A stretch of DNA of 64,000 bases from Cytophagales bacterium WSM2-2. GTDB taxonomy: Bacteria > Bacteroidota > Bacteroidia > Cytophagales > Cyclobacteriaceae. A program made the translations under genes and the position numbers. The notes under the pieces were generated by a model that was not told the DNA's origin, searched no databases, and saw nothing but the letters and a program-made list of their open reading frames with translations. Shown piece by piece: positions 7,575-33,265 of the stretch (the stretch's first letter is position 1; each line of letters starts with the position of its first letter). The DNA is taken from positions 4,762,001 to 4,826,000 of the forward strand of contig BNHL01000001.1 in the NCBI GenBank assembly GCA_015472025.1, read 5' to 3'.

Positions 7575-7592
7575 TTATGATTTCGATCATGT
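7575..7592. promoter_or_regulatory. Fnr/Dnr-like operator upstream of fasciclin gene (proximal)
   Basis: The inverted repeat TTATGA-TTTCGA-TCATGT has ATGA and TCAT half-sites separated by six bases. That is the same spacing as in Crp/Fnr/Dnr sites. It is centred about 55 bp before the fasciclin start codon. A transcription start 41.5 bp downstream of the centre would leave a short leader of about 14 nt. Confidence 0.6.
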
Positions 7593-7633
7593 TCTTCCAT
7601 GATAATTGAAAGCTTTTCGTCAAAATTCCGGCA

Positions 7634-7651
7634 TTATGATCTCAGTCATAA
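7634..7651. promoter_or_regulatory. Fnr/Dnr-like operator upstream of fasciclin gene (distal)
   Basis: TTATGA-TCTCAG-TCATAA is a six-base half-site repeated perfectly in inverted orientation around a 6-bp spacer. It lies between the end of nosY (7729) and the fasciclin start (7528), 59 bp from the proximal site. It matches the sites upstream of the Crp/Fnr gene at 14.8 kb. Confidence 0.65.
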
Positions 7652-7728
7652 ACTGGCATTTGAATGCCCAGTGGATTTGATTTGATTTCAATTGGTTGTG
7701 CCGATTGACGGGATCAATGGCATCCGAA

Positions 7729-8496
7729 TCAGATGTCTTTTTTCGCGAATTTCTTCAACGCAAATAGAAGCGGACCTCCTATCCAGAGCATCAAAAACAA
7801 AAAGGAGTAAGTGATTCCTAAACTGCTTCCGAAGAAATTTCTATAGAATGCTCCGGTATATCCCATTAAAGCTGAAAGGTCCAATTTTAATAAGATGATT
7901 ATTCGGGCGAGATCTACTGGGTTTAAAGAGCTTAATATCAAAGTGACCTTCTCAAGCGGGTAGTCACTAAAACTGTATATGACATAGAGTACAAGTCCAT
8001 CATAGATCAACGTAAAATAGATCCAAAACAAGAGTGCAACTCCTATGCCTTTTGCTTTATCTCGTGTAGAAACCGATGCGAGCAATGCGAGTGATACAAA
8101 AACAAACGTGAGCAAGAGCCCCGAAAGAATCAAATACATTGCTGCTCCGCTGTAAGCCAGTAGCATCATAGGTACCGCCACTCCAACCAGGAACGCCAGT
8201 GCCAACGACATTGCCACTGAAAAGAACTCAGCAATAAAAATAGTTCTGCGATTGACTGGCTGGGAAAGCAAAAGCTCAATAAACTCGTATGAATTGAAGA
8301 AATGTGTTGTCGTGAAAACCACACTAACGAGAGGAACAACGAGAAGAATTATATTTAATAAGCTTAATGTTGATTTTCCCGGATCTGTATCCAGGCTATA
8401 CATGCTTAAAGTTACAACCATTAAAAAGGCAGTATAGAACAGGATGAACCGGCTTCTGACGATATCATAGAGAACGTACTTTGCTATCTTGATCAT
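7729..8496 (-). CDS. nosY: NosY-like ABC transporter permease
   Basis: This 255-residue hydrophobic protein has about six membrane segments and matches the ABC-2 type permease layout of NosY. In known nos systems NosY pairs with the ATPase NosF and periplasmic NosD to support assembly of the copper centre of N2O reductase. Its start overlaps the nosF stop in an ATGA arrangement, implying translational coupling. It is the last gene of the nos operon; a spacer of about 200 bp with two Fnr-like sites follows. Assignment rests on topology and on its place after nosF, because permease sequences of this type diverge strongly. Confidence 0.88.
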   Translation of the reverse strand: MIKIAKYVLYDIVRSRFILFYTAFLMVVTLSMYSLDTDPGKSTLSLLNIILLVVPLVSVVFTTTHFFNSYEFIELLLSQPVNRRTIFIAEFFSVAMSLALAFLVGVAVPMMLLAYSGAAMYLILSGLLLTFVFVSLALLASVSTRDKAKGIGVALLFWIYFTLIYDGLVLYVIYSFSDYPLEKVTLILSSLNPVDLARIIILLKLDLSALMGYTGAFYRNFFGSSLGITYSFLFLMLWIGGPLLFALKKFAKKDI

Positions 8497-9218
8497 TGTA
8501 TTTCAGCCGCTTTCAAGTTACGCTTCATGATCGTTGCAACCGCGCGACCTAATTTTAACTCACCCGTCTCTTTTTTCAATAAATCGATGGTGTCATTGAA
8601 CAACATTTTTCCGTCTTCCAGATAAACGAGGTTGGATGACAATTCATCCAAGTCACTCATAATGTGAGATGTGATCAGAAACAATTTATTCTTACTTGTC
8701 TCCGATTGAATTTTTTCTTTCAATATTTCGACAGCAATCGGATCGAGCCCTGCCGTGGGCTCATCAAGGATTAGAATTGGAGGATTAAAAAGAAAAGCAA
8801 GAGAAGCACTCACCTTTTGACGTGTCCCTCCTGAAAGAGTATGCATCCGTTTATCTTTCAGTTGATCAAGCTTAAATTCTCTAATCAAATCTTCGTCAAT
8901 TTTGTTTTCATCACTCCGAAGATCACGTATCATGCCAATGATTTGCCCGATTTTCATTTGATCAGGATACCGGCCAATCTGTGGCATGTACCCAATCAAC
9001 TTGCGATACACTGAATTCTGCAGAATGGATTTGCCGTCAACGAATATTTCGCCACGATCCGGCACCACCATCCCCAAAATGCATTTGATCAGTGTTGTTT
9101 TTCCTGAACCATTAGGACCGACAATAGCATATGACTTCCCTGATTCAAATTCGACATTGATTGAATCCAAAACTTCCAGCCGACCGAAACGTTTGTGAAT
9201 ATCAGTTATCGTAATCAT
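8493..9218 (-). CDS. nosF: NosF-like ABC transporter ATPase
   Basis: This is a 241-residue ABC ATPase. Walker A is GPNGSGKT at residues 34-41, the signature is LSGGTRQK at about 130-137, and Walker B is ILILDEPTAGLDP at about 150. A switch histidine follows in TSHIMSDLD. It powers the NosY permease in copper-site maturation of N2O reductase. The start overlaps the end of nosD by 17 bp and its stop overlaps the nosY start by 4 bp, so the three genes form a tightly coupled block. Confidence 0.92.
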   Translation of the reverse strand: MITITDIHKRFGRLEVLDSINVEFESGKSYAIVGPNGSGKTTLIKCILGMVVPDRGEIFVDGKSILQNSVYRKLIGYMPQIGRYPDQMKIGQIIGMIRDLRSDENKIDEDLIREFKLDQLKDKRMHTLSGGTRQKVSASLAFLFNPPILILDEPTAGLDPIAVEILKEKIQSETSKNKLFLITSHIMSDLDELSSNLVYLEDGKMLFNDTIDLLKKETGELKLGRAVATIMKRNLKAAEIQ

Positions 9219-10440
9219 AATTCTTCATAGCCGGGTGATTGTCTTTTAGGCTTTCGGGAGTGATAGATGGAACTACTTTCTCGGATCGATCCAAAAGATA
9301 CACCAAAAAACTGCGCCATAACATTATCGATGATGGCATCTTCTCAACCACCATAGAGTACAAACTCACCGGATGAAAAGGCACATCCCCTATTCCATTT
9401 CTATCAAGATCGTACCCCTGATAACTATCCCAATAATTGTAGTCGACCGTATTCAATACCAGCGAACCATTGGTGGCCATGTCAAAAGTATTGGTTAAGA
9501 AATTATTCTTTTCAAAAGAATTTCCATCACAGTTCGCCTGTATTTTTACAGCCCACCCATTGCCGCTAAATACATTTTTTTCGAATAAGCAACGGCTCGA
9601 GCCCTCCATATAAACACCAACTGTGTTCCGTAAAAACTGATTGTCTTCGATATGACTATCCCGAATATCTTTCAACAACAAACCGTAAGACGATGAGCCC
9701 CAGTTATCCTCGAAGTGATTCCCTTTCATTGTCACATCTTGTGTGTACATAACTGCAACACCTGCTCCGTTATCATGAAAAGTATTATTGATGTACTCAT
9801 CATGATGCGAAAACATGAAATGAAGTCCATACCGCATATTTGCGCGACTGAAATTCTTTTCGACTTTTGAGTGTGTGACAAATTCAAAGTAAATACCATC
9901 CCGATGTCCACTAATTTCATTGTGCCTGACCGTAATTGAATCGCATTTCCATGCATGAATTCCGTTACCGATTTGCTGCTCTGCCTCTGCATTGGAGTGA
10001 AGAATATTGTTTTCAACCAGGGTACACGTGGAATTGGCCAAGTGTATTCCGAAGAAAGTATTTTCTAACTGATTATTTATCACCCGCAACCGCTTTGTCT
10101 CTATAGCGCTCACCGCTGAAATATCGGTAATGCTTGCCGTGCCTGTATTGATCATCCGGAAACCAATAATGGAGACGTCATTGGCAGCTACCGTAAATAT
10201 TTCATACTTGTTTTCCCCGTCAAGTACTGGATAATTAATGCCTATGAATACAATGGATTTTTTTACTATAAAATTCCCCTCACGATAAAGGCCAGGCATC
10301 ACACGAATGGTATCGCCTTTCGTGGCTAAGACAATTGCCGATTGAATCGACTTCAGAGATTTTCTCTGGTCCACAACCAGGGTCCGGGCTTTGGCTGGAA
10401 ATAGGGATAAGGCAAAAACAAAAAAAAACAGGAGCCTCAT
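9202..10440 (-). CDS. nosD: NosD, periplasmic beta-helix nitrous oxide reductase maturation protein
   Basis: This 412-residue protein starts with a Sec signal peptide (about 1-18, MRLLFFFVFALSLFPAKA). A right-handed parallel beta-helix of about a dozen rungs follows, rich in N-N-x-F/I-x-x-N repeats (for example NNTFHDNGAGVAVMYTQDVTMKGNHF). This is typical of NosD and the pectate-lyase-like fold. NosD works with NosF/NosY in the periplasm to deliver or fit the copper-sulfur cluster of NosZ. The ATG at 10440 shares its A with the TAA stop of the upstream gene (TAATG). A longer frame to 10491 would lie inside that gene and precede the signal peptide, so it is not used. Confidence 0.93.
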   Translation of the reverse strand: MRLLFFFVFALSLFPAKARTLVVDQRKSLKSIQSAIVLATKGDTIRVMPGLYREGNFIVKKSIVFIGINYPVLDGENKYEIFTVAANDVSIIGFRMINTGTASITDISAVSAIETKRLRVINNQLENTFFGIHLANSTCTLVENNILHSNAEAEQQIGNGIHAWKCDSITVRHNEISGHRDGIYFEFVTHSKVEKNFSRANMRYGLHFMFSHHDEYINNTFHDNGAGVAVMYTQDVTMKGNHFEDNWGSSSYGLLLKDIRDSHIEDNQFLRNTVGVYMEGSSRCLFEKNVFSGNGWAVKIQANCDGNSFEKNNFLTNTFDMATNGSLVLNTVDYNYWDSYQGYDLDRNGIGDVPFHPVSLYSMVVEKMPSSIMLWRSFLVYLLDRSEKVVPSITPESLKDNHPAMKNYDYDN

Positions 10441-11453
10441 TACTTGTATTGCGTAACCAGTTCGCCCCAAGCCAAATAAATTCCCTTCCATTCTTTTTTA
10501 AATTTGCTCATGCTTGCCTTCGTTTCGAATGCAGCTGCCTGGCCATCCATAGGGCTCCTGATTTCTGTTGACTTGACGTAAAATGCATCAAAGGCGTTGA
10601 TAAGCTTTCCAGGATTCAAATAATCTATTACAAGGGCATGTTGAAAATCATATGGATCATCGTTCCCGGAGTTGTAGTAATTGATGAAACAACGTATATC
10701 GTCAAACTTATAAATCTTCCCTTTTTTTGTAACCAGTTCAGCTCCAAACTTATTATCCATTAGTGTCATTTTGCAAAAATGACAAACATCTGTTCCATAG
10801 TTTAATTGTTCGGGCTCAGTGGAGCAAGAAATAATTAACGAGCCGGCAAGTAGAAGAAAGCCAAAATTAAAATACTTCATGTCATTTATTTTTTTCCATT
10901 CATAAACAAGAAGGCCAAAAAGCAACACCCCTACCCCGATAAAAATCCATCCTCCGATATCTGGTCCGGAGAACGCTGTAAAATTTAATAACTGCTTAGT
11001 TCCGATTAAAGGAGGTTGGTATGACATTCCTTCGATCTTGATTGGCGCCTCCGGATTGAGATTGTGTCCATAGTCGTATCCCCACAAATAAAAATCAATC
11101 AGGGCTCCGAAACCTGTCGCTAAAATCAAACCCAGGAATGATATAAGCATGAACCGTTTGTTAACGATCACGCTTGCAAGTCCAAACACAATAATAAAAC
11201 CAATGATGTAGCTGATGTATCCAAATTCAGGAAACATACTTGGCTCAATTGTTCTCATGCCGATATAATGATTCAATGCACTGATCGTTCTTACTTCACC
11301 CGTTAGGGTGTTATACCAAATCTTCATCTCCAAGCCTTCCGGGTACTGTGGCGCCCACATAAGGATTTGCCACAGCGGGACGAAGAAAGCAGCAATCAGC
11401 ACAAGCGCAGATGCTGCTACCAGGATTCGGGTAATTGGCTTTAATGGCTTCAT
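10440..11453 (-). CDS. nosL: Membrane protein fused to NosL copper chaperone
   Basis: This is a single 337-residue reading frame with two parts. Residues 1-190 form an integral membrane protein with about four helices and the motif APQYPEGLEMKIW. It resembles the small membrane protein next to clade II nosZ (tentatively NosB-like). Residues 192-337 form NosL, beginning with a complete lipoprotein signal (MKYFNFGFLLLAGSLIISC) and carrying the Cu-site motif CHFCKMTLMD. A lipoprotein leader in mid-protein is abnormal. The junction contains a run of seven A, and either other reading phase stops at once just before the NosL ATG at 10880. NosL may therefore normally be translated separately. The ATG at 11453 lies after an intercistronic hairpin, which argues against the in-frame start further upstream at 11501. 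Confidence 0.85.
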   Translation of the reverse strand: MKPLKPITRILVAASALVLIAAFFVPLWQILMWAPQYPEGLEMKIWYNTLTGEVRTISALNHYIGMRTIEPSMFPEFGYISYIIGFIIVFGLASVIVNKRFMLISFLGLILATGFGALIDFYLWGYDYGHNLNPEAPIKIEGMSYQPPLIGTKQLLNFTAFSGPDIGGWIFIGVGVLLFGLLVYEWKKINDMKYFNFGFLLLAGSLIISCSTEPEQLNYGTDVCHFCKMTLMDNKFGAELVTKKGKIYKFDDIRCFINYYNSGNDDPYDFQHALVIDYLNPGKLINAFDAFYVKSTEIRSPMDGQAAAFETKASMSKFKKEWKGIYLAWGELVTQYK

Positions 11454-11469
11454 TTTTCGTTGCGTTGTA

Positions 11470-11495
11470 AAGGCGCCCCTCTGCAGAGGCGCCTT
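11470..11495 (-). repeat. Strong hairpin between nosZ and the NosL fusion gene
   Basis: The arms AAGGCGCC and GGCGCCTT are perfectly complementary over 8 bp, with a 10-nt loop whose core TCTGCAGA is itself palindromic. The hairpin sits in the 69-bp gap between the nosZ stop and the next ATG. No T-run follows on the transcribed strand, so a simple intrinsic terminator is unlikely. An mRNA-stabilising or attenuating element that sets the nosZ:nosL ratio fits better. Confidence 0.6.
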
Positions 11496-11522
11496 GCTCA
11501 AACCTGTAAACTATGAAACCTG

Positions 11523-13511
11523 TTATTTAGGTGAGCTTTTTGCCTCTTCTGCTATAACACCGGTAGAAAATTTCAGTGGAGTATTACTGCCAGCAGCGGA
11601 TACCCGGGCGTATCCTTGCATCTCCTGGTGAAGAGCGGAACAAAAATCTGTGCAATAGAACGGTGACACACCAACTTCATCCGGTATCCACTTCAAAGTT
11701 TGTGTCTCACCTGGCATAATCAATATTTCAGCATTGGCAGCTCCTTTGATGGCAAATCCATGCGGCACATCCCAGTCTTGCTCAAGATTTGTCACGTGGA
11801 AGTATACCACATCGCCGAGCTTAATACCTTCAATGTTATCAGGTACAAGGTGAGATCGAATAGCAGTCATTGAAACATGCACTTCGTTTCCTTTACGAAC
11901 TACCTTCGCTTCTTTTTCTCCTTTTGCTGCATAAGGGTGATTGTTGTCTTCAATCTTGAATATTTTTACAGAATTGGGCATCACAAGGCTTGCAGGAATG
12001 GCTTCTGCATAATGAGGTTCTCCTGTCGTTGGGAAATCAAGCAGCAACTGCATTTTATCTCCGGAAATATCATACAACTGTGCAGACTGAGTCAGTTCCG
12101 GTCCTGTTGGCAAATAGCGGTCCTTGGTAATTTTATTATACGCGATTACATATTTGCCATGAGGCTTGCGTGTAGGGCCTCCCGGCACACTCAAGTGACC
12201 AATAGAATAATAAGTTGGAACTCTATCCAGAACCTCTAGCGATTTCACATTCCACTTTACTATTTCAGAGGATACGAAGAATGAAGTATAAGCATTGCCC
12301 TCGTTGTCAAATTCCGTGTGCAATGGACCCAGGCCTGGTTTCTTAACTTCACCATGAAGAGCTGATTCATATTTAATCACGGGTATTCCCGCAAATTCAC
12401 CTTCAAAATCTTTATCAGCTATTGCTTTTTGAATTTTGCTAAAGGAGAACACGGGAATCAATGCCGCCAGTTTTCCTGAAGCAACAATGTACTCGCCTGA
12501 TGGATCTGTGTCACAACCATGAGGGGATTTCGGACAAGGAATGAAATAAATAATATCTTTCAGAACAGTCGGGTCCAACTGCAATACCTCGGTCATCATC
12601 TCCGAGGTGGCGGTGTGGGTTTTCTCGTCAAGCACGTTATGTGCATACTTGGCCTTGACCTTCTCTCCCTTTCCTTGCGCTATATATTCTTCGGCCTTTT
12701 TCCAATTGACAGCCATAATGAAATCCTTATCCTTTTGGGTTGCATTTACCTCCAGTAAAGTATAAGCTTGTTCAGTATTATAGCAAGAGAAAAAGAACCA
12801 GCCATGTGAAGGGCCCTTACCAGCTCTTGACAAATCAAAATCCACGCCCGGTGTTTTCAATTGAAAACCGATATTCATACGGCCTGATGCAGGATCAATT
12901 TTAATGAAACTGATTGTGCCTTTAAAATTTTGTTTGTATGAACTGATCGGCACATCGCGATTGTCTCCTACCGGCACGCTAAAGCGCGTACCCGCAACAA
13001 TGTATTCACTATTCTCAGTAATAAATGGCGAAGAGTGGTTGCCACCACTATTCGGCAATTCAAGAATCTCTTCTGTCTTAAAAGTCTTTAAACTTACTCG
13101 CGCTACTCGGGGAGTATTGTTACCATTACCAAATGCCCAACGTCCGTCATGTTCCCCATTGGTTACCGAAAGCGCGATGTGGTGAAGGTCATCCCAGGGA
13201 ACGAATCCATGGGAAGTGTTAAGCATAGGTTTAGTTTCTTCACTGAACCCATATCCACTTTCAGCAAACTGCGAAAACACAGGAACTATCCTTAACAGGC
13301 GACCTGACGGGATTCCATAAATTGACATTTGCCCGTTGAACCCCCCTGAAACGATATTGTAAAACTCATCATATTTTCCGGGGGCTACATAAACTTTTGC
13401 AGCTGCATTTCCTACCACAGCTTCCTGGGGCCCTTTGGGCTTGCAGCCATTTACTGCGACTATTGCACCCGTAACGGCCAGTAGCGCTATTATTCTGGTT
13501 AAATTTTTCAT
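11523..13511 (-). CDS. nosZ: Nitrous-oxide reductase NosZ, clade II (Sec-dependent)
   Basis: This 662-residue protein reduces N2O to N2 in the periplasm. The N-terminus is a Sec or lipoprotein-like leader (MKNLTRIIALLAVTGAIVAV then NGC, Cys23) without the twin-arginine of clade I enzymes. The beta-propeller carries CuZ-type histidines in WDDLHHIALSVTNGEHDGRW, PSHGWFF, CPKSPHG, LGPLHTEF, IGHLSVPGG, RKPHGKY and GEPHYAE. The C-terminal cupredoxin has the CuA ligands in FYCTDFCSALHQEM (about Cys620, Cys624, His628, Met631). The first in-frame ATG at 13556 would overlap the cytochrome gene; the ATG at 13511 gives the signal peptide. It lies in an operon with a cytochrome c and maturation genes. 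Confidence 0.98.
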   Translation of the reverse strand: MKNLTRIIALLAVTGAIVAVNGCKPKGPQEAVVGNAAAKVYVAPGKYDEFYNIVSGGFNGQMSIYGIPSGRLLRIVPVFSQFAESGYGFSEETKPMLNTSHGFVPWDDLHHIALSVTNGEHDGRWAFGNGNNTPRVARVSLKTFKTEEILELPNSGGNHSSPFITENSEYIVAGTRFSVPVGDNRDVPISSYKQNFKGTISFIKIDPASGRMNIGFQLKTPGVDFDLSRAGKGPSHGWFFFSCYNTEQAYTLLEVNATQKDKDFIMAVNWKKAEEYIAQGKGEKVKAKYAHNVLDEKTHTATSEMMTEVLQLDPTVLKDIIYFIPCPKSPHGCDTDPSGEYIVASGKLAALIPVFSFSKIQKAIADKDFEGEFAGIPVIKYESALHGEVKKPGLGPLHTEFDNEGNAYTSFFVSSEIVKWNVKSLEVLDRVPTYYSIGHLSVPGGPTRKPHGKYVIAYNKITKDRYLPTGPELTQSAQLYDISGDKMQLLLDFPTTGEPHYAEAIPASLVMPNSVKIFKIEDNNHPYAAKGEKEAKVVRKGNEVHVSMTAIRSHLVPDNIEGIKLGDVVYFHVTNLEQDWDVPHGFAIKGAANAEILIMPGETQTLKWIPDEVGVSPFYCTDFCSALHQEMQGYARVSAAGSNTPLKFSTGVIAEEAKSSPK

Positions 13512-13539
13512 CTCATCTATTTTAAACGTGTCGTTCAGA

Positions 13540-14013
13540 TTATTTCTCTCCATCATTTTTTCTCATAAACTCAAGGATATCCCGCGCATCTCCTATTGAG
13601 ATATTTTGATTTGGCATTCTCACTAAGCAGAGTTCAAATAATTTTTGTGCCTCCGGATCTTTATCAAGCATCACATCCACATTAGTGACCATATTCATAA
13701 TCCATTCAGGCTGTCTGCGCTTAGTCACATCTTTCCATCCCGGCCCAACAAGCCTTTGATCGGTGAGCTTATGACAGGCGCCACATTTCATATCGTAAAT
13801 GGCCTGTCCACGCTCTACGCGCCCAGCCTCGAGCGGGGTTTTCAGCGTGACATTCTTTACTGCTCCTATCCCTTTAGTTGGATTGGCTATCACTTCTTCT
13901 ACAGCCGATTTTGTTGCGGGTTGCTCAGGGTATTCTTCAACGGGGCCCTTTGGTTTTTTAGGAGCACAAGCGAAGGCCAGCACTACAACTCCTAATAAGA
14001 ATAAGTATTTCAT
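13540..14013 (-). CDS. Monohaem cytochrome c lipoprotein, probable electron donor to NosZ
   Basis: This is a 157-residue protein. The leader ends in the lipobox AFAC (Cys16), followed by a Pro/Lys/Glu-rich linker. A class I cytochrome c domain follows with haem motif CGACH at residues 77-81 and a likely axial Met133 in VRMPNQN. GPGWKDV is typical of short cytochromes in clade II nos clusters. It is probably anchored in the periplasm and passes electrons to CuA of NosZ, whose gene follows at once. The donor role is inferred from position. Confidence 0.93.
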   Translation of the reverse strand: MKYLFLLGVVVLAFACAPKKPKGPVEEYPEQPATKSAVEEVIANPTKGIGAVKNVTLKTPLEAGRVERGQAIYDMKCGACHKLTDQRLVGPGWKDVTKRRQPEWIMNMVTNVDVMLDKDPEAQKLFELCLVRMPNQNISIGDARDILEFMRKNDGEK

Positions 14014-14032
14014 AGTTTATTTTTGGTTTGAT

Positions 14033-14650
14033 TCATATGGATATTTTTCTTCCGATGATTTTGACCTTCCCGTTTGACTCCATTTTCTTGACTGTTCGGA
14101 TAACAGTTTCTACACGAAGGCCACTCATGTCTGCCAGTTGTTGACGGGTAAATGGAACTATATAATTACGATCAGTTTTTACACTTGATAAGATTTTCGG
14201 TTGCGAAGTTGAGTCAGTCTTAAAATAATGTAACAAGCTCATGATCCTATGCTCCGGATCGTAAGAGGATATTTCTGACAACAACATCGATTTGTATTTT
14301 AGTCGTTGACACAGAACCTGATCCAGATGCAGGTGAATATCAAAATTGTCCCGGAGAAGATTGAAAAAATTCTCCTTTGTTAGTTTAATAATAAGAGTCG
14401 GTTCAATTGCACTAGCTGTGCTCGGGTAACGGAAATTGGAGAACAACGGAGGTTCTCCGAAGCTATCGTTATTCTTGAAGACACCTTGAATAAATTCTTT
14501 TCCTTCGGGACTATTGGTCGTCATCTTAATCGAACCCTTCGCAATCTGAAAATAATTTGACGCTTCTTCACCTTGACGAAAAATGACATCGTTCTTTCGC
14601 AACTGAATCTCCTTGGCTCCATATTTTCTAAGAATCTCCAGATCTATCAT
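14033..14650 (-). CDS. Crp/Fnr-family transcriptional regulator without Fe-S cysteines
   Basis: This 205-residue protein has a cyclic-nucleotide-binding-type beta barrel (about 15-120), a dimerisation helix and a C-terminal helix-turn-helix (TRQQLADMSGLRVETVIRTVKKM). Only one cysteine is present, so the [4Fe-4S] cluster of Fnr is absent; sensing of NO/haem (Dnr-like) or redox is more likely. In the recognition helix the Glu and Arg of the Fnr ETxSR pattern are kept but Ser is replaced by Ile, compatible with an altered half-site. The ATG at 14650 is preferred because an Fnr-like site lies 54 bp upstream. An in-frame ATG at 14815 is also possible. It heads the nos operon, 19 bp before the cytochrome gene. 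Confidence 0.9.
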   Translation of the reverse strand: MIDLEILRKYGAKEIQLRKNDVIFRQGEEASNYFQIAKGSIKMTTNSPEGKEFIQGVFKNNDSFGEPPLFSNFRYPSTASAIEPTLIIKLTKENFFNLLRDNFDIHLHLDQVLCQRLKYKSMLLSEISSYDPEHRIMSLLHYFKTDSTSQPKILSSVKTDRNYIVPFTRQQLADMSGLRVETVIRTVKKMESNGKVKIIGRKISI

Positions 14651-14703
14651 TTCTCTCCTTATTTGTTCCCGAGGTAAACCTAGCCTCCACCGCCTATTGA
14701 AAA

Positions 14704-14719
14704 CATGACTTTTGTCATG
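14704..14719. promoter_or_regulatory. Fnr/Dnr-like operator near the crp/fnr start
   Basis: The repeat CATGA-CTTTTG-TCATG has ATGA/TCAT half-sites with a 6-bp spacer, centred 61 bp before the ATG at 14650. A start site 41.5 bp downstream of the centre would give a leader of about 20 nt. The position suggests autoregulation of the operon. If the longer reading frame from 14815 were real, this site would be inside the gene. Confidence 0.55.
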
Positions 14720-14850
14720 ATACTTTATGATAATACCCATAAAACCCTCAAGAATTGGGTTTCTGAAAGAGTTGGCATCCAGTATAAAAGATGGAATTAT
14801 GTTGCTTCCCTTCATGATTGATCAAAAATCATGAACTTCTATCTATTAGT

Positions 14851-14868
14851 TTATGATTCGAATCATAA
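14851..14868. promoter_or_regulatory. Perfect Fnr/Dnr-like palindrome upstream of the nos operon
   Basis: TTATGATTCGAATCATAA is an 18-bp perfect palindrome and the best copy of the TTATGA-N6-TCATAA motif in the window. It lies upstream of the Crp/Fnr gene that leads the nosZ operon. A paired second copy lies at 14704. Confidence 0.7.
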
Positions 14869-24516: not shown

Positions 24517-24522
24517 GATCTA

Positions 24523-25941: not shown

Positions 25942-25959
25942 ATATGATAAAAGTCATCT
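25942..25959. promoter_or_regulatory. Fnr/Dnr-like site upstream of YciE-like gene
   Basis: TATGA-TAAAAG-TCATC contains exact ATGA/TCAT half-sites with a 6-bp spacer. It is located in the 245-bp spacer after the CoA-transferase gene and 114 bp before the ATG at 26073. It may open a second transcription unit, running from the YciE-like gene to the Mg pump and thioredoxin. Confidence 0.55.
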
Positions 25960-26072
25960 TCGATGCAAGCAACAATCATGTTTGTTGGAAAAAGGGAATA
26001 CTACTTTAGCTTCATAAATAGCGGCAATTGTTACGGTTATTATGACTTACCTGGAGATACCGGGGCAAAATT

Positions 26073-26582
26073 ATGAAAGCAAAACTCAATAATCTAAATG
26101 ACGCACTGACATATCATCTGGAGGGTATGTATCGTGTGGAGAAAAAACTGCAAAAGTTCTTGCCCGATTGCTTCGATCAGGCCGCTTCCCGGGCTTTGAA
26201 AAATGAAGTCAAAAAATACCTCAGCAATACGGGAGATAAGAGAGTCAAGCTGAAACGCATCTTTAGCTATTTGCTGACCGGGCCTTTCGGATGTAAGAAC
26301 AAGATTATTGACGCATTCATGGAGGATCAAACCAGCTTGCAGAAATATGCAATGACTTCTTCATTAAGAGATACTATGCTCATTGGAAACCTCCAGGCAA
26401 TTAATTCCTATAAGATTTCTATGTACAACACGGCCAAAACGTTTGCCATGACGCTTGAATTACAAAAAGTGGTTGACCTGCTTCAGGAGATCCTCGAGTT
26501 GGAAAAAGAATCGGAACACGCGTTTGCGAAAATTGCTCTTAAGGAAATAAGTGATAAAACAACAGCATTGACGACTGTTTAA
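26073..26582 (+). CDS. YciE/DUF892-like ferritin-fold protein, ligands degenerate
   Basis: This is a 169-residue four-helix protein. Residues 8-25 (LNDALTYHLEGMYRVEKKL) match the start of YciE/DUF892 proteins, and the family length fits. YciE proteins are ferritin-like and induced by stress. In the third helix, where the family has Q-x-x-E-H-Y-E-I, this protein reads LQAINSYKISMYNTAK. The expected Glu/His metal ligands are therefore replaced and the di-iron site may be lost. It is four bases upstream of the flavoprotein gene. Confidence 0.7.
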   Translation: MKAKLNNLNDALTYHLEGMYRVEKKLQKFLPDCFDQAASRALKNEVKKYLSNTGDKRVKLKRIFSYLLTGPFGCKNKIIDAFMEDQTSLQKYAMTSSLRDTMLIGNLQAINSYKISMYNTAKTFAMTLELQKVVDLLQEILELEKESEHAFAKIALKEISDKTTALTTV

Positions 26583-26586
26583 AAAT

Positions 26587-27045
26587 ATGATTGGGGAACT
26601 TACAAATAATCAAATAGATCAGGTCTTGCATAGTCAGGCTGTTGGGAGGATTGCCTGCTACACGAATGACAAGCCATATATTGTTCCTGTAACGTATGCC
26701 TTTGACGGAGAATATCTCTACCTGCATTCACGGGAAGGAATGAAAATCAAAATGATGCGTAAAAACCCGGTGGTATGCTTTGAAGTTGATATAATTGAAA
26801 ATATGGCGAACTGGCGAAGCGTAATTATCTGGGGAAGATATGAGGAATTAAAAAAAGAGACAGACCGTCAAAGAGCTGCGAAGATATTGAAGGAAAGAGT
26901 ACTGCCACTCCAAACTTCGGAAACCGTAAGCCGGCCTGCTGAGGGCACCAACCCTCCACTTGTTGTGGAAAAAAAACAAAGAGCCATCATTTACCGAATC
27001 AGGATAACGGAGAAGACCGGAAGATTCGAGAAATCGGGTCGCTAA
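26587..27045 (+). CDS. Pyridoxamine 5'-phosphate oxidase-fold flavoprotein
   Basis: This 152-residue split-barrel protein of the NimA/PNPOx-like family has MIGELTNNQIDQVLHSQAVGRIACYTNDKPYIVPVTY, followed by LYLHSREGMKIKMMRKNPVVCFEVD and WRSVIIWGRYEEL. This group binds FMN, F420 or haem and includes nitroimidazole-resistance proteins and unknown reductases. Similar genes occur in hypoxia-induced islands next to universal stress proteins. Its substrate is not known. It is the second gene of the unit beginning at 26073. Confidence 0.9.
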   Translation: MIGELTNNQIDQVLHSQAVGRIACYTNDKPYIVPVTYAFDGEYLYLHSREGMKIKMMRKNPVVCFEVDIIENMANWRSVIIWGRYEELKKETDRQRAAKILKERVLPLQTSETVSRPAEGTNPPLVVEKKQRAIIYRIRITEKTGRFEKSGR

Positions 27046-27063
27046 TTCATTTCTCCCAGGAAA

Positions 27064-28569
27064 ATGCTCACTGGTGAACATAATTTTTTAATAGTCAAAT
27101 CGCTCGGCATTGATTCTTACCGGGAGAACATCATCTTCATGCGACAGGATTGTGAGGTTTGCCGATCGGAAGGATTCACCGCATTGACCCGGGTTGTGGT
27201 CAGCTATGGCGACAAGAGTATCGTTGCTACAATCAATGTTGTCGTGTCAGAAATCCTCCATCACTCTGAAGCTGCATTATCCATTGAGGGAATGAAGCGG
27301 CTGGGTGTCAAGGATGGGGATGTGATTCATGTATCTCACCTGAAGCCAATTGAATCTCTAAAAAAAGTAAGAGCTAAGATGTATGGAAATACGCTGGATG
27401 ATGATTCATTCATTGAAATCATCCAGGATGTTATCGCAGGACACTACTCGAATATTGAATTGGCGGCATTTATTTCCACATGCGTTGGTAAGAGGCTTAC
27501 ATTACAGGAAATTACTTCGCTTACCAGGGCGATGCTTAAGACAGGTCAGAATATCGAATGGGGCTCTGATAAAGTTTTTGATAAACACTGTGTGGGAGGA
27601 CTTCCCGGCAATCGAACCACTCCTATTATCGTAAGCATCATTGCAGCTTTGGGACTAATGATCCCAAAAACATCTTCACGAGCAATTACATCACCCGCTG
27701 GTACCGCAGACACTATGGAGACAATGACACCAGTCGACCTCACTCTTGCTCAAATGAGAAAAGTGGTTGAAAAAGAAGGTGGCTGTATTGTTTGGGGAGG
27801 AGCAGTTCAGCTTAGTCCGGCAGATGACGTGCTGATATCGGTGGAGCGTTCTTTAGATGTTGACAGTGAAGGGCAAATGATCGCCTCTGTATTATCTAAG
27901 AAAGCGGCAGCAGGATCAACTCATGTTATCATTGATATACCAGTAGGTCCTTCAGCCAAAGTTCGTGACCCTATTGCAGCAAGACACCTTTGTCAATCTT
28001 TCACTTCCGTTTGCGAAGCGATTGGCCTGGAAGTACTGGTCTTGCAGACCGATGGCAGCCAACCTGTTGGCAATGGTATCGGGCCGGCTTTGGAAGCAAT
28101 AGATGTTCTTAATGTCTTGAAAAATAAGAAGGACGCCTCCGTGGATTTATCGGATCATGCCTTGCTCCTTTCGGGAGCACTACTGGAAATGGCTGGCCAG
28201 TGCAAAACTGGTGAAGGGATTCAACAGGCAAGAACTGTTTTGGAAAACGGCAAAGCTTATGAAAAATTCATTGCGATATGCGAGGCACAGGGAGGATTCC
28301 GTGAGCCCAAAACTGCACCTTATACATTGGATATTCTATCAGATCACTCAGGCAAAGTAGTTGGCATTGACAATCGCACCGTTGCCAGAATTGCAAAGTT
28401 GGCCGGAGCACCGAAAGCTTCAAGTGCTGGAATTTTCTTTCGCACTAAACTTGGAAAGAAAATTGAAAGAGGTGAACCTCTTTTAACCATTCACGCAGAA
28501 TCGATCGGAGAACTCAACTATGCCCGCGATTACGCCAATACCATGAATCATTTTATCAAAATTCAATGA
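27064..28569 (+). CDS. AMP phosphorylase-type nucleoside phosphorylase (DeoA family)
   Basis: This 501-residue protein has an N-terminal extra domain (about 1-95), as in archaeal AMP phosphorylase, then the DeoA-type alpha domain and phosphate/nucleoside-binding alpha/beta domain. The loop KHCVGGLPGNRTTPIIV matches AMP phosphorylases rather than the KHSTGG(V)GDKT form of thymidine phosphorylase. The SSRAITSPAGTADTMETMTPV motif is also present. The expected reaction is NMP + phosphate to free base + ribose 1,5-bisphosphate. The stop overlaps the PRPP synthetase start (ATGA), implying coupled synthesis. No ribose-1,5-bisphosphate isomerase or RubisCO is seen in the window. Confidence 0.88.
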   Translation: MLTGEHNFLIVKSLGIDSYRENIIFMRQDCEVCRSEGFTALTRVVVSYGDKSIVATINVVVSEILHHSEAALSIEGMKRLGVKDGDVIHVSHLKPIESLKKVRAKMYGNTLDDDSFIEIIQDVIAGHYSNIELAAFISTCVGKRLTLQEITSLTRAMLKTGQNIEWGSDKVFDKHCVGGLPGNRTTPIIVSIIAALGLMIPKTSSRAITSPAGTADTMETMTPVDLTLAQMRKVVEKEGGCIVWGGAVQLSPADDVLISVERSLDVDSEGQMIASVLSKKAAAGSTHVIIDIPVGPSAKVRDPIAARHLCQSFTSVCEAIGLEVLVLQTDGSQPVGNGIGPALEAIDVLNVLKNKKDASVDLSDHALLLSGALLEMAGQCKTGEGIQQARTVLENGKAYEKFIAICEAQGGFREPKTAPYTLDILSDHSGKVVGIDNRTVARIAKLAGAPKASSAGIFFRTKLGKKIERGEPLLTIHAESIGELNYARDYANTMNHFIKIQ

Positions 28570-29486
28570 ACACGGTGATCATGGCTTTTCCGGGAAATGA
28601 AATCCTTGCCGAAGCAATTCGCAGAGGAATTAACGGTGAAGAAGGTAAAACTACTATCCGATACTTTCCGGATGGCGAATCTTATGTACGAATTCTTACC
28701 GATGTCAAAGCAAAGGAGGTAATTGTAGTATGTTCCTTAGATCGTCCCGACAACAAGATTTTACCATTATTCTTTCTGTGCAAAAAATTAAAGGAAGGCG
28801 AAGCGCAGCGGATAACACTCATTGCCCCCTACCTCGCTTACATGAGACAGGATAAATCATTTGCACCTGGCGAGGCAGTAACTTCAGTTCATTTTGCTTC
28901 TCTTTTATCCTCGTTTGTGGATCGGCTGATAACCATTGATCCACATTTGCACCGCCATCATGCCATGGAAGAAATCTACTCTATCCCATGCACCGTCCTG
29001 CATGCTGCTGATCATATCTCAAAATGGATAAAATTAAATGTGTCAAATCCGGTACTGATAGGTCCGGACAGTGAAAGTGAACAATGGGTCTCATCGGTGG
29101 CTAAAAATGCCGATGCGCCTTTTATCATATTTGAAAAAGAACGACTCGGAGATCGCGAAGTAAAAATATCCGATTCACTTGTCCGCACTTATAAAAATTT
29201 TACTCCCGTTCTGGTCGATGACATTATTTCCACTGCCCAAACGATGATTGAATCAATTAGCCATTTAAAGAAAAATGGATTTAAACCGGTGTGTATTGGA
29301 GTTCACGGAATCTTCTGCGATGAGTCTTACCAGCAGCTTATGAGTGCCGGGTCTCTTCATGTGGTGACATGTAATACAATTCTACATCCAACCAATCAAA
29401 TTGATATAAATGAGCTTTTCGTCAAATCATTACAAGAGAACACAGGAGTTCCTCATCAAAAGAATCTATTGAAATACAATGATTAA
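28566..29486 (+). CDS. prs: Ribose-phosphate pyrophosphokinase-like protein (divergent)
   Basis: This 306-residue protein has two phosphoribosyltransferase-fold halves. The ATP/flexible loop region is APYLAYMRQDKSF. DPHLHRHH matches the catalytic-histidine region, and the PRPP-binding loop is VLVDDIISTAQTM. Members make PRPP from ribose 5-phosphate and ATP. It is shorter and more divergent than housekeeping Prs and overlaps the AMP-phosphorylase gene by 4 bp. A specialised partner in nucleotide turnover is more likely than the main cellular enzyme; this is inference. Confidence 0.85.
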   Translation: MNTVIMAFPGNEILAEAIRRGINGEEGKTTIRYFPDGESYVRILTDVKAKEVIVVCSLDRPDNKILPLFFLCKKLKEGEAQRITLIAPYLAYMRQDKSFAPGEAVTSVHFASLLSSFVDRLITIDPHLHRHHAMEEIYSIPCTVLHAADHISKWIKLNVSNPVLIGPDSESEQWVSSVAKNADAPFIIFEKERLGDREVKISDSLVRTYKNFTPVLVDDIISTAQTMIESISHLKKNGFKPVCIGVHGIFCDESYQQLMSAGSLHVVTCNTILHPTNQIDINELFVKSLQENTGVPHQKNLLKYND

Positions 29487-29853
29487 AGTTATGAAACCCG
29501 TTATCAGGCACTTGCTCTTATGGAGTCCGAGGGTTATTTGCATTCTTTATGTGAGTTGCTTCCTGACTTTATTTGCCTTGGATGAATGGAGCGGCCAACC
29601 TCGTTTCTGGGATAAGTTTCAGGCTGTTCTCATTCACCTGTCACCTGCTGTCTTGATCGTTGCGGTCCTGATTTTGGCCTGGAAATGGGAATGGATTGGC
29701 GCGATCGTTTTCAGTGCGCTTGGCATTGCTTATATGATTTTAGTTCCCGGACATCCAGACTGGGTCCTCGAAATTTCTGGCCCGTTATTTTTGATCGGGA
29801 TACTTTTCTTTGTGAGTTGGCTTTTCAGAAAAGATATAAAAGTGCAACATTGA
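29479..29853 (+). CDS. DUF7670-like four-helix membrane protein, 124 aa
   Basis: This small integral membrane protein has about four hydrophobic segments: SPRVICILYVSCFLTLFAL; VLIHLSPAVLIVAVLILAW; WIGAIVFSALGIAYMIL; and SGPLFLIGILFFVSWLF. It overlaps the PRPP synthetase gene by 8 bp. A second ATG at 29491 would still give the same membrane part. Similar small proteins occur in Bacteroidota, but their function is unknown. It lies just before the Mg-type pump and may accompany it. Confidence 0.8.
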   Translation: MIKVMKPVIRHLLLWSPRVICILYVSCFLTLFALDEWSGQPRFWDKFQAVLIHLSPAVLIVAVLILAWKWEWIGAIVFSALGIAYMILVPGHPDWVLEISGPLFLIGILFFVSWLFRKDIKVQH

Positions 29854-29890
29854 GTAGTTAAACACTTGGGGGCTAAAGCATGCCAATGTC

Positions 29891-32416
29891 ATGACTGAAC
29901 CATTGCGTCATTATGCGGTAGCGGAGTTAAAAAAAATTGAAGAGGAATTTCTTTCTTCTCCAAAGGGTCTATCTGAAGGACAAATCAGTAAACAGGAAAA
30001 ATTATTCGGCAGAAATGAGCTGCGCACGACCCCCAACCTCGGCATCTTCCTGGACTTTTTAAGTCACTTCAAAAGTCCCCTGGTTATCATTCTGCTTTTT
30101 GCATCCGGACTTTCATTTTTAGTGGGTGATGATGTCAATGCTATTATTATTGCTTCCATCGTATTGATCAGCGCAGCGTTAGATTTCTTTGAAGAAAGAG
30201 GCGCCAGGGATGCTGCACAACGCCTTCGGGATACTGTACGAAATAAGGCCCTGGTAATACGAGATGGATCGGAAAGAGAAGTATTCTCTGAAGAATTGCT
30301 CCCGGGAGATATTGTGAAACTAAGTGCCGGGAAAGTAGTTCCTGCAGATCTGAGAATCATTTTGGCTAAAGATTTCTTTGTAAACCAATCGGCCCTTACC
30401 GGAGAATCTTTCCCCGTAGAAAAAACACCAGTCGTTCCCGCTCAGGCGCAAAGTATTGATGAGTTTACAAATATTGCCTTGATGGGCTCTAGTGTTGTCA
30501 CCGGTTCAGCCACTGCAATCGTTGTCAAAACTGGAATGTCTACGCACTTCGGGGGCATTGCAGCAAAACTGATTCTTCCTGCAGAAGAGACCAGTTTCAG
30601 TCGTGGCGTAAAAGATTTCGGTTACCTGGTCATGCGCATCACATTGATGCTGATTGTATTCATTTTTCTAATCAATGGAGTCTTAAAGCACAATTGGTTG
30701 GAGGCGTTCATGTTTGCACTGGCCGTGGCCGTAGGCCTAACCCCTGAACTTCTAACGATGATCATGTCTGTGAGCATGGCGCGGGGCTCTTTGAGAATGG
30801 CGAAGAAAGGAGCTATCGTTAAGAAGCTGGCATCGATCCCGAACTTTGGAAGCATGGATGTTTTGTGTACTGATAAAACAGGAACGCTTACACAAGACAA
30901 GATCGCAGTAGTAAAATACATAAATGCGAATGGAGAAAGCAGCGATGAAGTATTGCGGCTCGCCTACCTTAACAGCTATTACCAATCGGGAATGAAAAAT
31001 CCGCTGGATGACGCGCTGCTGAGTGGTTTCAAAATAGATATTAATAATACCGAGAAAACGGACGAGGTCCCTTTTGATTTTTTTCGCAGGCGAATGAGCG
31101 TAGTCGTCAAAACTAATGGCGATAATCTGCTAATTACAAAGGGCGCTCCCGAAGAAATTTTGAAAATATGCAACACAGGTGAACTCAATGATCATAAAAT
31201 CACCGACCTGTATGAGTCATTGAGTAAAGAAGGCTACAAAGTCATTGCGATAGCTGTAAAAGAGCTGGGGCATAAAGAAAGTTGCTTAAAAGAAGACGAG
31301 CATGCAATGCTGCTGAAAGGTTTCATTGCTTTTCTTGACCCGCCCAAACCCGAAGCCGCTGAAACTATACGCTCACTGAATGATATCGGCATCGAAGTAA
31401 AAATAATAACAGGCGACAATCACTTGGTAGCCTTGAGAATTTGCGCGGATATCGGGCTGAAAGTAAAGGGACTGATGTTGGGTAAAGAAATAGATTTTTT
31501 GAGCGATGATGCACTTCAGATCAGAGCCGGGAACACTACGGTTTTTGCGCGATTTTCTCCTGATCAAAAGAACAGAGTTATCCACGCACTGCAAAAGCGG
31601 CACACTGTTGGCTACATGGGCGATGGTATAAATGATGCCCCTTCATTGAAGACAGCAGACGTAGGAATCTCGGTAAGCAATGCAACAGACGTTGCCAAAG
31701 AATCGGCCGATATAATTCTGACAGACAAAAGCCTGCTGATTCTCAAGGAAGGTGTGATGGAGGGCCGTAAAACTTTTGTCAACACGATTAAATATATTCA
31801 GATGGGCCTTAGCTCCAACTTTGGCAACATGTTTTCAATGGCCGCAGCAGCGGTATTCCTCCCCTTCCTGCCGATGTTACCCGTTCAGATATTGCTCAAC
31901 AATTTCATTTATGATTTTTCACAGGTGACGATTCCCACTGACAATGTGGATTCAGAATCCATTCTATATCCGAAGCGATGGAACCTAAGCTTCATCAAAA
32001 AGTTTATGATTGTGTTTGGTATAATAAGCTCCGCGTTTGACCTCATCACGTTCTATATCTTCTATAGCTACTTTGATGCAAACGAGTCACAGTTCCAGAC
32101 GGCATGGTTTCTCGAATCACTTACCACACAGACACTGGTGATCTTCTTCATTCGCACACGCAAAATTCCCTTTATGCAAAGCAATGCTAGTGTACCCGTG
32201 ATTGTAAGCTCAATCGCTTGTTTGCTATTGGCCTGGGCTATTCCATTTTCACCGTTAAGCCATTATTTGAATATGACCACACTTTCAGCAAATATGCTCA
32301 CTGTCATAATCGCCCTTGTATTCGTCTATCTGGTTATTGTAGAGTTGGCGAAACGCATTTTTTACAGATTTGATAAGCACATTATTGAAATGGAGCGAAT
32401 AAAAGTGGTTCTATAA
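29891..32416 (+). CDS. mgtA: Magnesium-translocating P-type ATPase (MgtA/MgtB-like)
   Basis: This is an 841-residue pump. An N-terminal cation-ATPase domain is followed by the actuator TGESFPVEKTP. The transport helix carries GLTPELLTMIMSVSMARGS, close to the MgtA signature, and ARGSLRMAKKGAIVKKLASI leads to the phosphorylation site DKTGTLTQDK (Asp about 328). A GDGINDAPSLKTADVGISV hinge and a hydrophobic C-terminal block follow. Known family members import Mg2+ at low external supply. No mgtL-type leader was recognised upstream. It follows the small membrane protein by 37 bp and precedes thioredoxin by 35 bp. Confidence 0.95.
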   Translation: MTEPLRHYAVAELKKIEEEFLSSPKGLSEGQISKQEKLFGRNELRTTPNLGIFLDFLSHFKSPLVIILLFASGLSFLVGDDVNAIIIASIVLISAALDFFEERGARDAAQRLRDTVRNKALVIRDGSEREVFSEELLPGDIVKLSAGKVVPADLRIILAKDFFVNQSALTGESFPVEKTPVVPAQAQSIDEFTNIALMGSSVVTGSATAIVVKTGMSTHFGGIAAKLILPAEETSFSRGVKDFGYLVMRITLMLIVFIFLINGVLKHNWLEAFMFALAVAVGLTPELLTMIMSVSMARGSLRMAKKGAIVKKLASIPNFGSMDVLCTDKTGTLTQDKIAVVKYINANGESSDEVLRLAYLNSYYQSGMKNPLDDALLSGFKIDINNTEKTDEVPFDFFRRRMSVVVKTNGDNLLITKGAPEEILKICNTGELNDHKITDLYESLSKEGYKVIAIAVKELGHKESCLKEDEHAMLLKGFIAFLDPPKPEAAETIRSLNDIGIEVKIITGDNHLVALRICADIGLKVKGLMLGKEIDFLSDDALQIRAGNTTVFARFSPDQKNRVIHALQKRHTVGYMGDGINDAPSLKTADVGISVSNATDVAKESADIILTDKSLLILKEGVMEGRKTFVNTIKYIQMGLSSNFGNMFSMAAAAVFLPFLPMLPVQILLNNFIYDFSQVTIPTDNVDSESILYPKRWNLSFIKKFMIVFGIISSAFDLITFYIFYSYFDANESQFQTAWFLESLTTQTLVIFFIRTRKIPFMQSNASVPVIVSSIACLLLAWAIPFSPLSHYLNMTTLSANMLTVIIALVFVYLVIVELAKRIFYRFDKHIIEMERIKVVL

Positions 32417-32451
32417 TTGAACATGATTAAGAAAGAAAACTAAATACAGAA

Positions 32452-32775
32452 ATGGAATCAGAACATAAGACACGAAAATTCTCAGATATTCTCAAAGAGG
32501 AGCATTTGGTTTTAGTAGAATTTTCAGCTGCCTGGTGCGGGCCATGTAAAATGATGGTACCCGTTTTAGCAGAACTCAAATCGTGGATTGGGGAAAAAGT
32601 CACGATCTTAAAAATAGATGTAGACAAAAATGCTCGCACAGCTGCGAACTATGAAATCAGGTCTGTTCCAACTTTACTTCTTTTCAAGAACGGCCAGGTT
32701 ACCTGGAGGCATTCTGGTACTGCTGATTTGCATATGTTGAAAAGGGTTCTGCAACAGCATTTCACGCCTGGCTAA
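32452..32775 (+). CDS. Thioredoxin
   Basis: This 107-residue protein is of canonical thioredoxin length with no signal peptide, so cytoplasmic. The active site is WCGPCK at residues 28-33, the conserved cis-Pro is in RSVPTLLLFKNG, and the substrate-groove Asp (KIDVDKN) is present. It reduces protein disulfides using thioredoxin reductase. Being last in the pump/nucleotide unit suggests a stress-induced extra copy rather than the housekeeping one. It is convergent with the 140-residue gene, 3 bp apart. Confidence 0.95.
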   Translation: MESEHKTRKFSDILKEEHLVLVEFSAAWCGPCKMMVPVLAELKSWIGEKVTILKIDVDKNARTAANYEIRSVPTLLLFKNGQVTWRHSGTADLHMLKRVLQQHFTPG

Positions 32776-32778
32776 AAC

Positions 32779-33201
32779 CTAACCTTTCTTGTTTGCACTA
32801 CTAATGAACTTAAGAAAGTCTGCTTTCAGCTCATTGTAGCTTTTCGAGAACGTACTCAGTTCATCCATTAGCGAATCATGTTCGCGGAAATACCGTGTAC
32901 TGGTTTCATTTTTTGTTTTTAAAGCAGACGCCAGCCTGTTTTCATGTTGACGCAGCTTTGAGCGCAAGCTATCAACAACCTCCCCGCTATAGTAAAGAAA
33001 CAGGTTTTCGAAGTGATCAATTTTCTTTTTGTCCTTTAGCTTATAAAATAGTGGAGCGTAGTCTATAAGCGCTTTTTGAAAAAAAATCAATTCACCTTTC
33101 CACATTATTGTAGTAGAAAGCCATTGAAGCGCTTTTTTGTGTTTCCGGATCAATTCTGGCTGGAGGATATAATTTTTGGTAGCACTGGTAACGGAGATCA
33201 T
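32779..33201 (-). CDS. Hypothetical helical protein, 140 aa
   Basis: This is an almost all-helical, charged protein with no signal peptide, membrane helix or cysteine (IRKHKKALQWLSTTIMWKGELIFFQKALID; HENRLASALKTKNETSTRYFREHDSLMDELSTF). It has no recognisable family. The gene is divergent from the Mla-type operon, and one Fnr-like site lies about 55 bp upstream, so it may belong to the same low-oxygen regulon. Confidence 0.75.
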   Translation of the reverse strand: MISVTSATKNYILQPELIRKHKKALQWLSTTIMWKGELIFFQKALIDYAPLFYKLKDKKKIDHFENLFLYYSGEVVDSLRSKLRQHENRLASALKTKNETSTRYFREHDSLMDELSTFSKSYNELKADFLKFISSANKKG

Positions 33202-33247
33202 AATGTTGTGTTTTTGACCTCAAGTAAGTGTAAATCACCCTTGGTCC

Positions 33248-33265
33248 TTATGACGGTTCTCATCG
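33248..33265. promoter_or_regulatory. Fnr/Dnr-like site in the divergent region before the Mla-type operon
   Basis: TTATGA-CGGTTC-TCATCG contains exact ATGA/TCAT half-sites. It lies between the hypothetical gene starting at 33201 (minus) and the permease gene starting at 33347 (plus). Leaders from a -41.5 position would be about 14 nt and about 49 nt, so it could act on either or both. Confidence 0.55.

Follow-up and report, generated by a model that had tools for sequence, protein, structure and literature searches.

The rhizobial FixL-FixJ-FixK system runs from a PAS kinase through a two-component step to a Crp/Fnr output, with the cbb3 oxidase and a copper ATPase as core targets, and the FNR, ANR and DNR regulons comprise low-oxygen targets that include Usp and cbb3. 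TGA-N6-TCA is the Crp/Fnr register; the FNR consensus is TTGAT-N4-ATCAA, with a T before TGA, and the CRP box is TGTGA-N6-TCACA, with a G in the same place. HcpR, another Crp/Fnr-family regulator, governs N-oxide genes; Bacteroides and Porphyromonas have it too (HcpR2). In the parts of the published reports available to us, the DNR consensus is given as TTGAT-N4-ATCAA and the HcpR motifs as wTGTGAn6TCACAw, TTGAC-N4-GTCAA and GTAAC-N4-GTTAC (PMC1274295), and the two-component system NmpRSTU of Myxococcus xanthus is described as controlling cbb3 and Usp genes through paired sites, the proximal one being essential at the promoter tested (PMC11841059). In this study, we examine 64,000 nucleotides of Cytophagales bacterium WSM2-2 (contig BNHL01000001.1, positions 4,762,001 to 4,826,000 of the forward strand; hereafter the window, numbered from its first letter), in which dyads of the form TGA-N6-TCA stand before a nos operon and an island of stress genes. 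From sequence comparison we consider with fair confidence that these dyads serve a low-oxygen regulon as the operators on which Crp/Fnr-family activators with an ExxIR recognition helix act, the best candidate in this genome being a receiver-Crp fusion (REC-Crp) encoded beside a FixL-like kinase.

The whole window holds 51 TGA-N6-TCA sites against 29.6 expected, a number matched by none of 100 shuffles, and 16 of them fall wholly within its 4,348 intergenic bases, where 2.05 are expected (300 Markov resamples, maximum 6). All eight intergenic inverted repeats listed in the initial annotation are real, their TGA-N6-TCA cores lying 2-3 bp inside the starts given, and the two perfect TTATGA-N6-TCATAA palindromes that it claimed are indeed present at 7634 and 14851, neither of them belonging to a pair. 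However, its list lacked eight more intergenic sites (20503, 20572, 23675, 23697, 33273, 37249, 37271 and 39218), and the pairing was overlooked. Four perfect pairs spaced 22 bp from centre to centre (20550/20572, 23675/23697, 33251/33273 and 37249/37271) occur in the intergenic DNA of the window, where 0.013 would be expected (300 resamples, maximum 1); sorted by spacing from 12 to 60 bp, exact-exact pairs in the window number four at 22, one at 47 and one at 59. Near-pairs are present at 14706/14728, with one mismatch, and, with degenerate partners, at 25945/25967 (3/6) and 7578/7600 (4/6). The exact paired pattern, searched for across the whole genome (5.55 Mb), occurs 10 times: besides the four cases in the window there are three at 2.055-2.059 Mb, two at 2.303 Mb and one at 0.442 Mb. 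The -41.5 activating position proposed earlier fits these pairs, since boxes matching TAnnTTTG at 5/6 lie 23 bp after those at 20550, 23675, 33251, 14706 (minus strand) and 25945; the box at the 37249 pair is weak, 4/6 on the minus strand and 3/6 on the plus.

The same arrangement recurs in related genomes. In 80 named REC-Crp loci (1.39 Mb), which were chosen by protein and not by motif, 66 dyad pairs are spaced at 22 bp and 15 at 23, no other spacing between 12 and 60 occurring more than 3 times, and a family scan gave 22 bp in 35 of 75 pairs among the matches listed, the next best spacing having 4. When the 66 pairs are taken in both orientations, a TAnnTTTG box of 5/6 or better is found 59 times at +23, and no other offset between 8 and 71 yields more than 6. 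Similarly, 34 non-redundant pairs from this genome and its relatives, which give 50 gene-facing orientations, have such a box at +23 in 24 orientations, with no other offset between 10 and 79 reaching more than 3. TAnnTTTG, the Bacteroidota housekeeping promoter element, spans -12 to -5 in Flavobacterium, as stated in the available part of the source (PMC9723704); because the box begins 23 bp after the pair, the dyad centres are placed at -41.5 and -63.5. The distance from the second dyad to the box thus peaks at the class II Crp/Fnr position, the start sites themselves being predicted. A frequency matrix of 132 composite windows reads [C/A]TGAY-N4-RTCA, 10 bp, TGAY-N4-RTCA, 23 bp, TAnnTTTG. 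As a window had to show at least 11 of its 12 half-site letters and a box of 5/6 or better to be included, the conservation of half-sites and box stems in part from selection; Y, R and the preceding C/A were unselected, and the base before TGA is C in 48%, A in 34%, T in 9% and G in 7%. Among 365 oriented sites of unpaired dyads, a -7 box lies at +23 in 24 and at +45 in 23, other offsets giving 9 or fewer, and 22 of the 28 unpaired dyads with a box at +45 or +46 show a 4/6 second dyad. This +45 peak and these second dyads suggest a generally strong upstream dyad and a downstream one that may decay; among composites, matches of 6+5 letters are commoner than 5+6 (37 vs 14). We have next to no doubt that the composite promoter is real. 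The ccoNO promoter region of one relative, G093 (L065 8213-8407), contains three serial dyads at 22-bp steps and a further pair.

Of 148 genomes of the order, 89 carry the 65-base composite (up to 2 mismatches), with 329 places in all; the reversed pattern has 2. A phylum sample of 247 genomes, tallied by hand, has the composite in 10/10 of the order, 23/51 others of the class and 4/186 of other classes, these four with one place each; the reversed control has 2 places in the sample. The largest numbers of matches in that sample are in G432, from another order of the class, with 31, and in G019, with 16; G432 may hold an expanded regulon. The distribution follows that of Crp proteins: at least one composite is present in 62 of the 66 genomes with REC-Crp, in 24 of the 44 with only a related stand-alone Crp (P0004-type) and in 3 of the 38 with neither (Fisher, either Crp vs neither, p 8e-15, kinship among genomes being ignored). 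A within-family permutation of REC-Crp against composite gave p 0.0008; perfect-pair counts in stand-alone-only genomes vs those with none did not differ significantly (p 0.07). REC-Crp presence was defined as a full-length-type match of about 215 bits or more, 6 of the 66 ending before residue 340; the first REC-Crp search, which scored the best 14 candidates per genome and may miss stand-alone Crps, was repeated with a stand-alone query.

Nine HTH_Crp_2 matches occur in this genome, seven of them above cut-off, and two of its Crps have an ExxIR recognition helix as read by eye: the Crp linked to nos (VETVIR) and REC-Crp (AESVIR), a receiver-cNMP-HTH fusion of 353 aa (G000:C1:2043507-2044565). 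The gene for the latter lies just downstream of a PAS histidine kinase and 2.7 Mb from the nos-linked crp; ccoNO is 3.7 kb distant from it, three perfect pairs are found at 10-14 kb, and in 76 of the 80 named loci the kinase gene adjoins it upstream. Cultured relatives that encode the fusion include Chryseolinea serpens and Ohtaekwangia koreensis. E313, I316 and R317 are invariant in 11/11 aligned REC-Crps, and ExxIR is present in 66 of 68 readable named REC-Crps (12 of 80 unread), in 27/27 readable unnamed ones (3 of 30 unread) and in 7/7 stand-alone Crps labelled at the composite loci fetched, including a nos-Crp homologue in G064. The initial annotation was right that the nos-linked Crp has an Ile at the position of the Fnr specificity Ser and lacks Fe-S cysteines; by inspection, neither it nor REC-Crp has the N-terminal Cys cluster of FNR. 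A CxxC near the N terminus is frequent in stand-alone relatives. The C or A before TGA, where FNR boxes have T and CRP boxes G, would fit an Ile in place of the FNR Ser. A second receiver-Crp paralogue (G000:C1:4700605-4701651, L024) has the helix ESLNR. Pfam matches above cut-off to the cNMP-binding fold and the Crp-type HTH place P0001, P0004 and the window Crp in the Crp/Fnr superfamily; an AlphaFold model of P0001 (pLDDT 81.5, 11-row alignment) finds Crp/Fnr structures first, at low TM-scores, and P0001 scores 74 of 266 bits against NCBIfam CRP, far under the cut-off. An activator of Crp/Fnr type is highly probable, and REC-Crp is somewhat favored as the main activator in this genome.

Against solved structures, the PAS domain of the kinase has FixL at E 3.7e-14 as its second-best match, after another histidine kinase at 9.1e-15; where FixL has the His that binds its haem, all 22 kinases compared align a His. 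In this genome the partner of the kinase is REC-cNMP-HTH_Crp and not a NarL/GerE-type FixJ. A REC-GerE gene is seen in G132, which has no full-length REC-Crp match and in which PAS-PAS-kinase, REC-GerE and Crp genes follow one another at one edge of an island. Over its 22 kb, this second stress island (L060-L061, G132:C3:88366-110279) has seven tandem pairs that are perfect and one that shows a mismatch, and its gene content differs from that of the window. As the regulator may be a fusion, separate REC-GerE and Crp proteins or stand-alone Crps with CxxC, it seems that the input module varies and the promoter grammar stays constant.

The first gene after the composite in relatives is ccoNO in 22 promoter rows, the FixL-like kinase in 21, CcoI in 10 and Usp in many, the labels being assigned by BLAST against our own reference set, conditional on a -7 box, with some genes counted repeatedly (the G093 ccoNO three times). 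Counted per named locus, a composite precedes ccoNO at 18/27, CcoI at 10/20 and the kinase at 21/76, and any composite is present at 59/80. Elsewhere in this genome, Usp genes, Hsp20 and a YceI/ethylbenzene-dehydrogenase-like unit lie near composites, a pair with one mismatch separates a Usp gene from the PAS kinase and has its box facing Usp, and a weaker pair (4+6) lies upstream of ccoNO. Since the composite repeatedly precedes ccoNO and the FixL-like kinase/receiver-Crp operon in relatives, an oxygen signal is more likely than NO, and the gene set can with good confidence be regarded as a putative microaerobic regulon. As to nosZ, composite-like elements with a score of 14/18 or more precede it at 10/30 loci, own included (9/29 without own genome), the other 20 scoring under 14/18. 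This test covered loci from 30 of the 55 genomes with a NosZ match, and the reversed null reached 14/18 in 1.3% of 1,500 chunks; of the ten composite-like loci, seven belong to the own family and the remaining three to a single further family. On these comparisons, the nos operon is a lineage-variable member of the predicted regulon and an added target in this lineage.

Within the window, composites precede crp-nos, two Usp genes, an acetyl-CoA hydrolase unit, MlaEFD and, with a weak box, DUF4136/Usp. Upstream of the nos-linked crp and the nos operon, half-site matching places a tandem pair (5/6 + 6/6 letters, 22 bp) at 14706..14739 on the minus strand, with the TAnnTTTG match TAGGTTTA (14675..14682, minus) 23 bp after it. 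Because pair and box fall inside the open reading frame 14033-14815, that frame is over-called and its start is probably near 14650, which leaves a Crp/Fnr-family regulator of 205 aa by Pfam and helix reading (14033..14650, minus). It is followed by genes for a cytochrome c, Sec-type (clade II) NosZ, NosL, NosD, an ABC ATPase and a permease (7729..14013, minus). An unpaired perfect palindrome (14854..14865, minus) is possibly a single-site promoter, because at a distance of 23 bp, on the strand of the nos genes, GATTTTTG matches the -7 box at 5/6. On the plus strand, the perfect tandem pair at 20550..20583 (22 bp), with TACTTTCG at +23 (20607..20614), stands before two Usp genes (20623..22307), and the perfect 22-bp pair at 23675..23708, with TAATTTTC at +23 (23732..23739), before genes for a 206-aa protein without Pfam match and an acetyl-CoA hydrolase/transferase (23896..25827). 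The pair at 25945..25978 (plus), in which site 1 is perfect and site 2 degenerate (3/6), has TACTTTAG at +23 (26002..26009, plus) and precedes DUF892, PNPOx, nucleoside phosphorylase, PRPP synthetase, DUF7670 and Mg-type P-ATPase genes (26073..32416, plus); the phosphorylase of this run is archaeal-type (TIGR02645) and is followed by the synthetase (27064-29486, in the stress island). Also on the plus strand, the perfect 22-bp pair at 33251..33284 and its box TTATTTTG at +23 (33308..33315) stand before the genes for MlaE, an MlaF-like ABC ATPase and MlaD (33347..35833). The perfect 22-bp pair at 37249..37282 (minus) has the weak -7 box TCCCTTTA (4/6) facing the Usp and DUF4136 genes (35835..37198, minus), with OsmC on the other side, and a weak pair (6/6 + 4/6; -7 4/6) precedes a fasciclin gene at 7578..7611 (minus). 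The unpaired perfect palindrome at 7637..7648 is assigned to no promoter, and an unpaired site at 16303..16314, between AI-2E transporter and P-type ATPase genes, is without a convincing -7 box.

We infer binding, phosphorylation, an oxygen signal and cooperativity from the element, its spacing, the neighboring genes and the co-occurrence with the regulator, which are observed. Two activator dimers would bind side by side at -63.5 and -41.5 and, because 22 bp is two helical turns, on one face of the DNA, the proximal dimer acting as a class II activator on the housekeeping sigma factor that reads TAnnTTTG. Low oxygen would act through the PAS kinase to give phosphorylated REC-Crp, which would bind the pair cooperatively and promote transcription of the cbb3 oxidase, the copper ATPase, Usp and Hsp20 and, here, also of nos and the stress island of the window; loading may proceed cooperatively from the upstream site, which would fit strong upstream and decayed downstream dyads. 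A wider proposal, which we put forward tentatively and at slightly less than even chance, is that one grammar (two ExxIR dyads 22 bp apart, with the -7 box 23 bp on) is kept across a Bacteroidota class, that the sensor is swapped, being in some cases a kinase with a receiver-Crp fusion and in others a set of separate FixL/FixJ/FixK-like genes or a stand-alone CxxC Crp, that receiver phosphorylation sets the cooperativity of the two dimers, and that nos is recruited lineage by lineage. No such mode of receiver phosphorylation acting on adjacent Crp dimers was found in the literature searched.

Several observations weigh against a low-oxygen regulon under ExxIR activators. By the rule applied, no composite lies directly upstream at 55/76 kinase genes, 9/27 ccoNO loci and 10/20 CcoI loci, and the Arg that adjoins the haem in FixL is present in just 8/22 kinases. 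A perfect pair 240 bp before kdpA (G000:C1:442214) is without a -7 box at +23; this pair may be due to chance or belong to another promoter type. ExxIR was read in 28/28 readable P0004-type Crps (30 loci), many from composite-free genomes, and as such a broad clade signature it does not discriminate. The genomes are related, so that the Fisher p is not phylogeny-corrected, and the group with neither Crp includes small genomes; moreover, the REC-Crp search cannot split the ExxIR fusion from the paralogue that carries ESLNR in this genome. Because composites are present in 24/44 genomes lacking REC-Crp, this protein cannot be the sole activator. Among five early exceptions with composites and no REC-Crp, four have the stand-alone relative, whose helix is unreadable in G093, and G048 has neither match. 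Finally, according to the available part of the report, the Bacteroidota metagenome-assembled genome UBA6192 lowers nosZ but not ccoNO as oxygen rises (PMC11879220).

In the initial annotation the nos-linked Crp, sensing NO or redox, was proposed as master regulator of both nos and the island of stress genes. Its ExxIR helix, its place in the island, the pair in its own promoter and the G064 homologue that adjoins a composite before cytc-nosZ speak for this, but a homologue lies within 1.5 kb of nosZ at only 8/30 loci, own included, composites in relatives cluster at cbb3, kinase and REC-Crp regions, and G132 and G119 have composites (15 and 2) with no NosZ match at E 1e-80, which also argues against an NO signal. 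We regard that role as improbable; as its own promoter is a composite, the nos-linked Crp reads as a target and possibly as a second-tier regulator. The earlier link between nos operon and stress island by a Crp/Fnr-type motif at class II positions is itself supported, and the motif recurs upstream of comparable genes in relatives; a true regulatory link had been recognized but probably given the wrong head. A layered arrangement is less remote, though still rather unlikely, in which REC-Crp, the paralogue at 4700605 and the nos-Crp share the site type and the nos-Crp adds an N-oxide signal to an oxygen-controlled regulon: REC-Crp and nos-Crp have ExxIR in common, a composite precedes the nos-Crp, the palindromes at 7634 and 14851 are unpaired and unpaired dyads have a -7 peak of their own at +23, but the paralogue carries ESLNR, not ExxIR.

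It is quite improbable that the dyads are bound by a protein from outside the Crp/Fnr family, such as a NarL- or NtrC-type response regulator, and that the Crps are bystanders. The REC-GerE regulator beside the G132 island and the NtrC-type NmpR, which runs a Usp/cbb3 oxygen regulon of Myxococcus via paired sites in the part of the report available (PMC11841059), speak for it, but the fixed -41.5 position and the housekeeping -7 box do not suit sigma-54 enhancers, co-occurrence follows the Crps, and the register of the dyads is that of Crp/Fnr. Sigma-54 control was discarded in view of the TAnnTTTG box at a fixed distance, and HcpR and DNR were rejected as regulators on their motifs. Chance or low-complexity matches may explain the 35 of 51 single window sites that are not wholly intergenic; as the origin of the pairs, chance is refuted by the spacing peak in REC-Crp loci, by the composite control (329 vs 2) and by intergenic resampling (4 pairs vs 0.013 expected), and we attach virtually no weight to it.

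The low-oxygen regulon that we favor shares with FixL-FixJ-FixK a FixL-resembling PAS kinase, a two-component step, a Crp/Fnr output and cbb3 and copper ATPase targets, and the row of kinase, REC-GerE and Crp genes in G132 resembles it further. It stands in contrast to that system in that receiver and Crp output are one protein in 66/148 genomes, the operators are paired at 22 bp, and Usp, Hsp20, Mla and nos genes are added here. With FNR, ANR and DNR it shares the family, the class II position and the low-oxygen targets; unlike the FNR/DNR box, the operators favor C or A before TGA, T being rare as is the G of the CRP box, and unlike FNR, REC-Crp and nos-Crp are without the Cys cluster. The likeness to NmpRSTU, in which a two-component system likewise acts on cbb3 and Usp by way of paired sites, does not extend to its NtrC-type activator, sigma-54 promoter and GCGCA-N5-TGCGC sites, as far as these are given in the available part of the report (PMC11841059). 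HcpR motifs differ from the composite, and pairing of HcpR sites is not mentioned in the part of PMC1274295 available. A search by title and abstract start, with subscription journals and supplements outside it, found no paper describing the paired element.

Environmental Bacteroidota with clade II nosZ are important N2O sinks, as stated in the available part of the report (PMC11879220), and their oxygen/N2O switch is little described in the literature searched. The 65-base signature, which can be found by a simple pattern search, would predict a low-oxygen regulon in Cytophagales-like genomes and names a two-component Crp as its testable regulator. It may place the cbb3 oxidase and the Usp stress proteins under one switch, joined in some lineages by N2O reductase.

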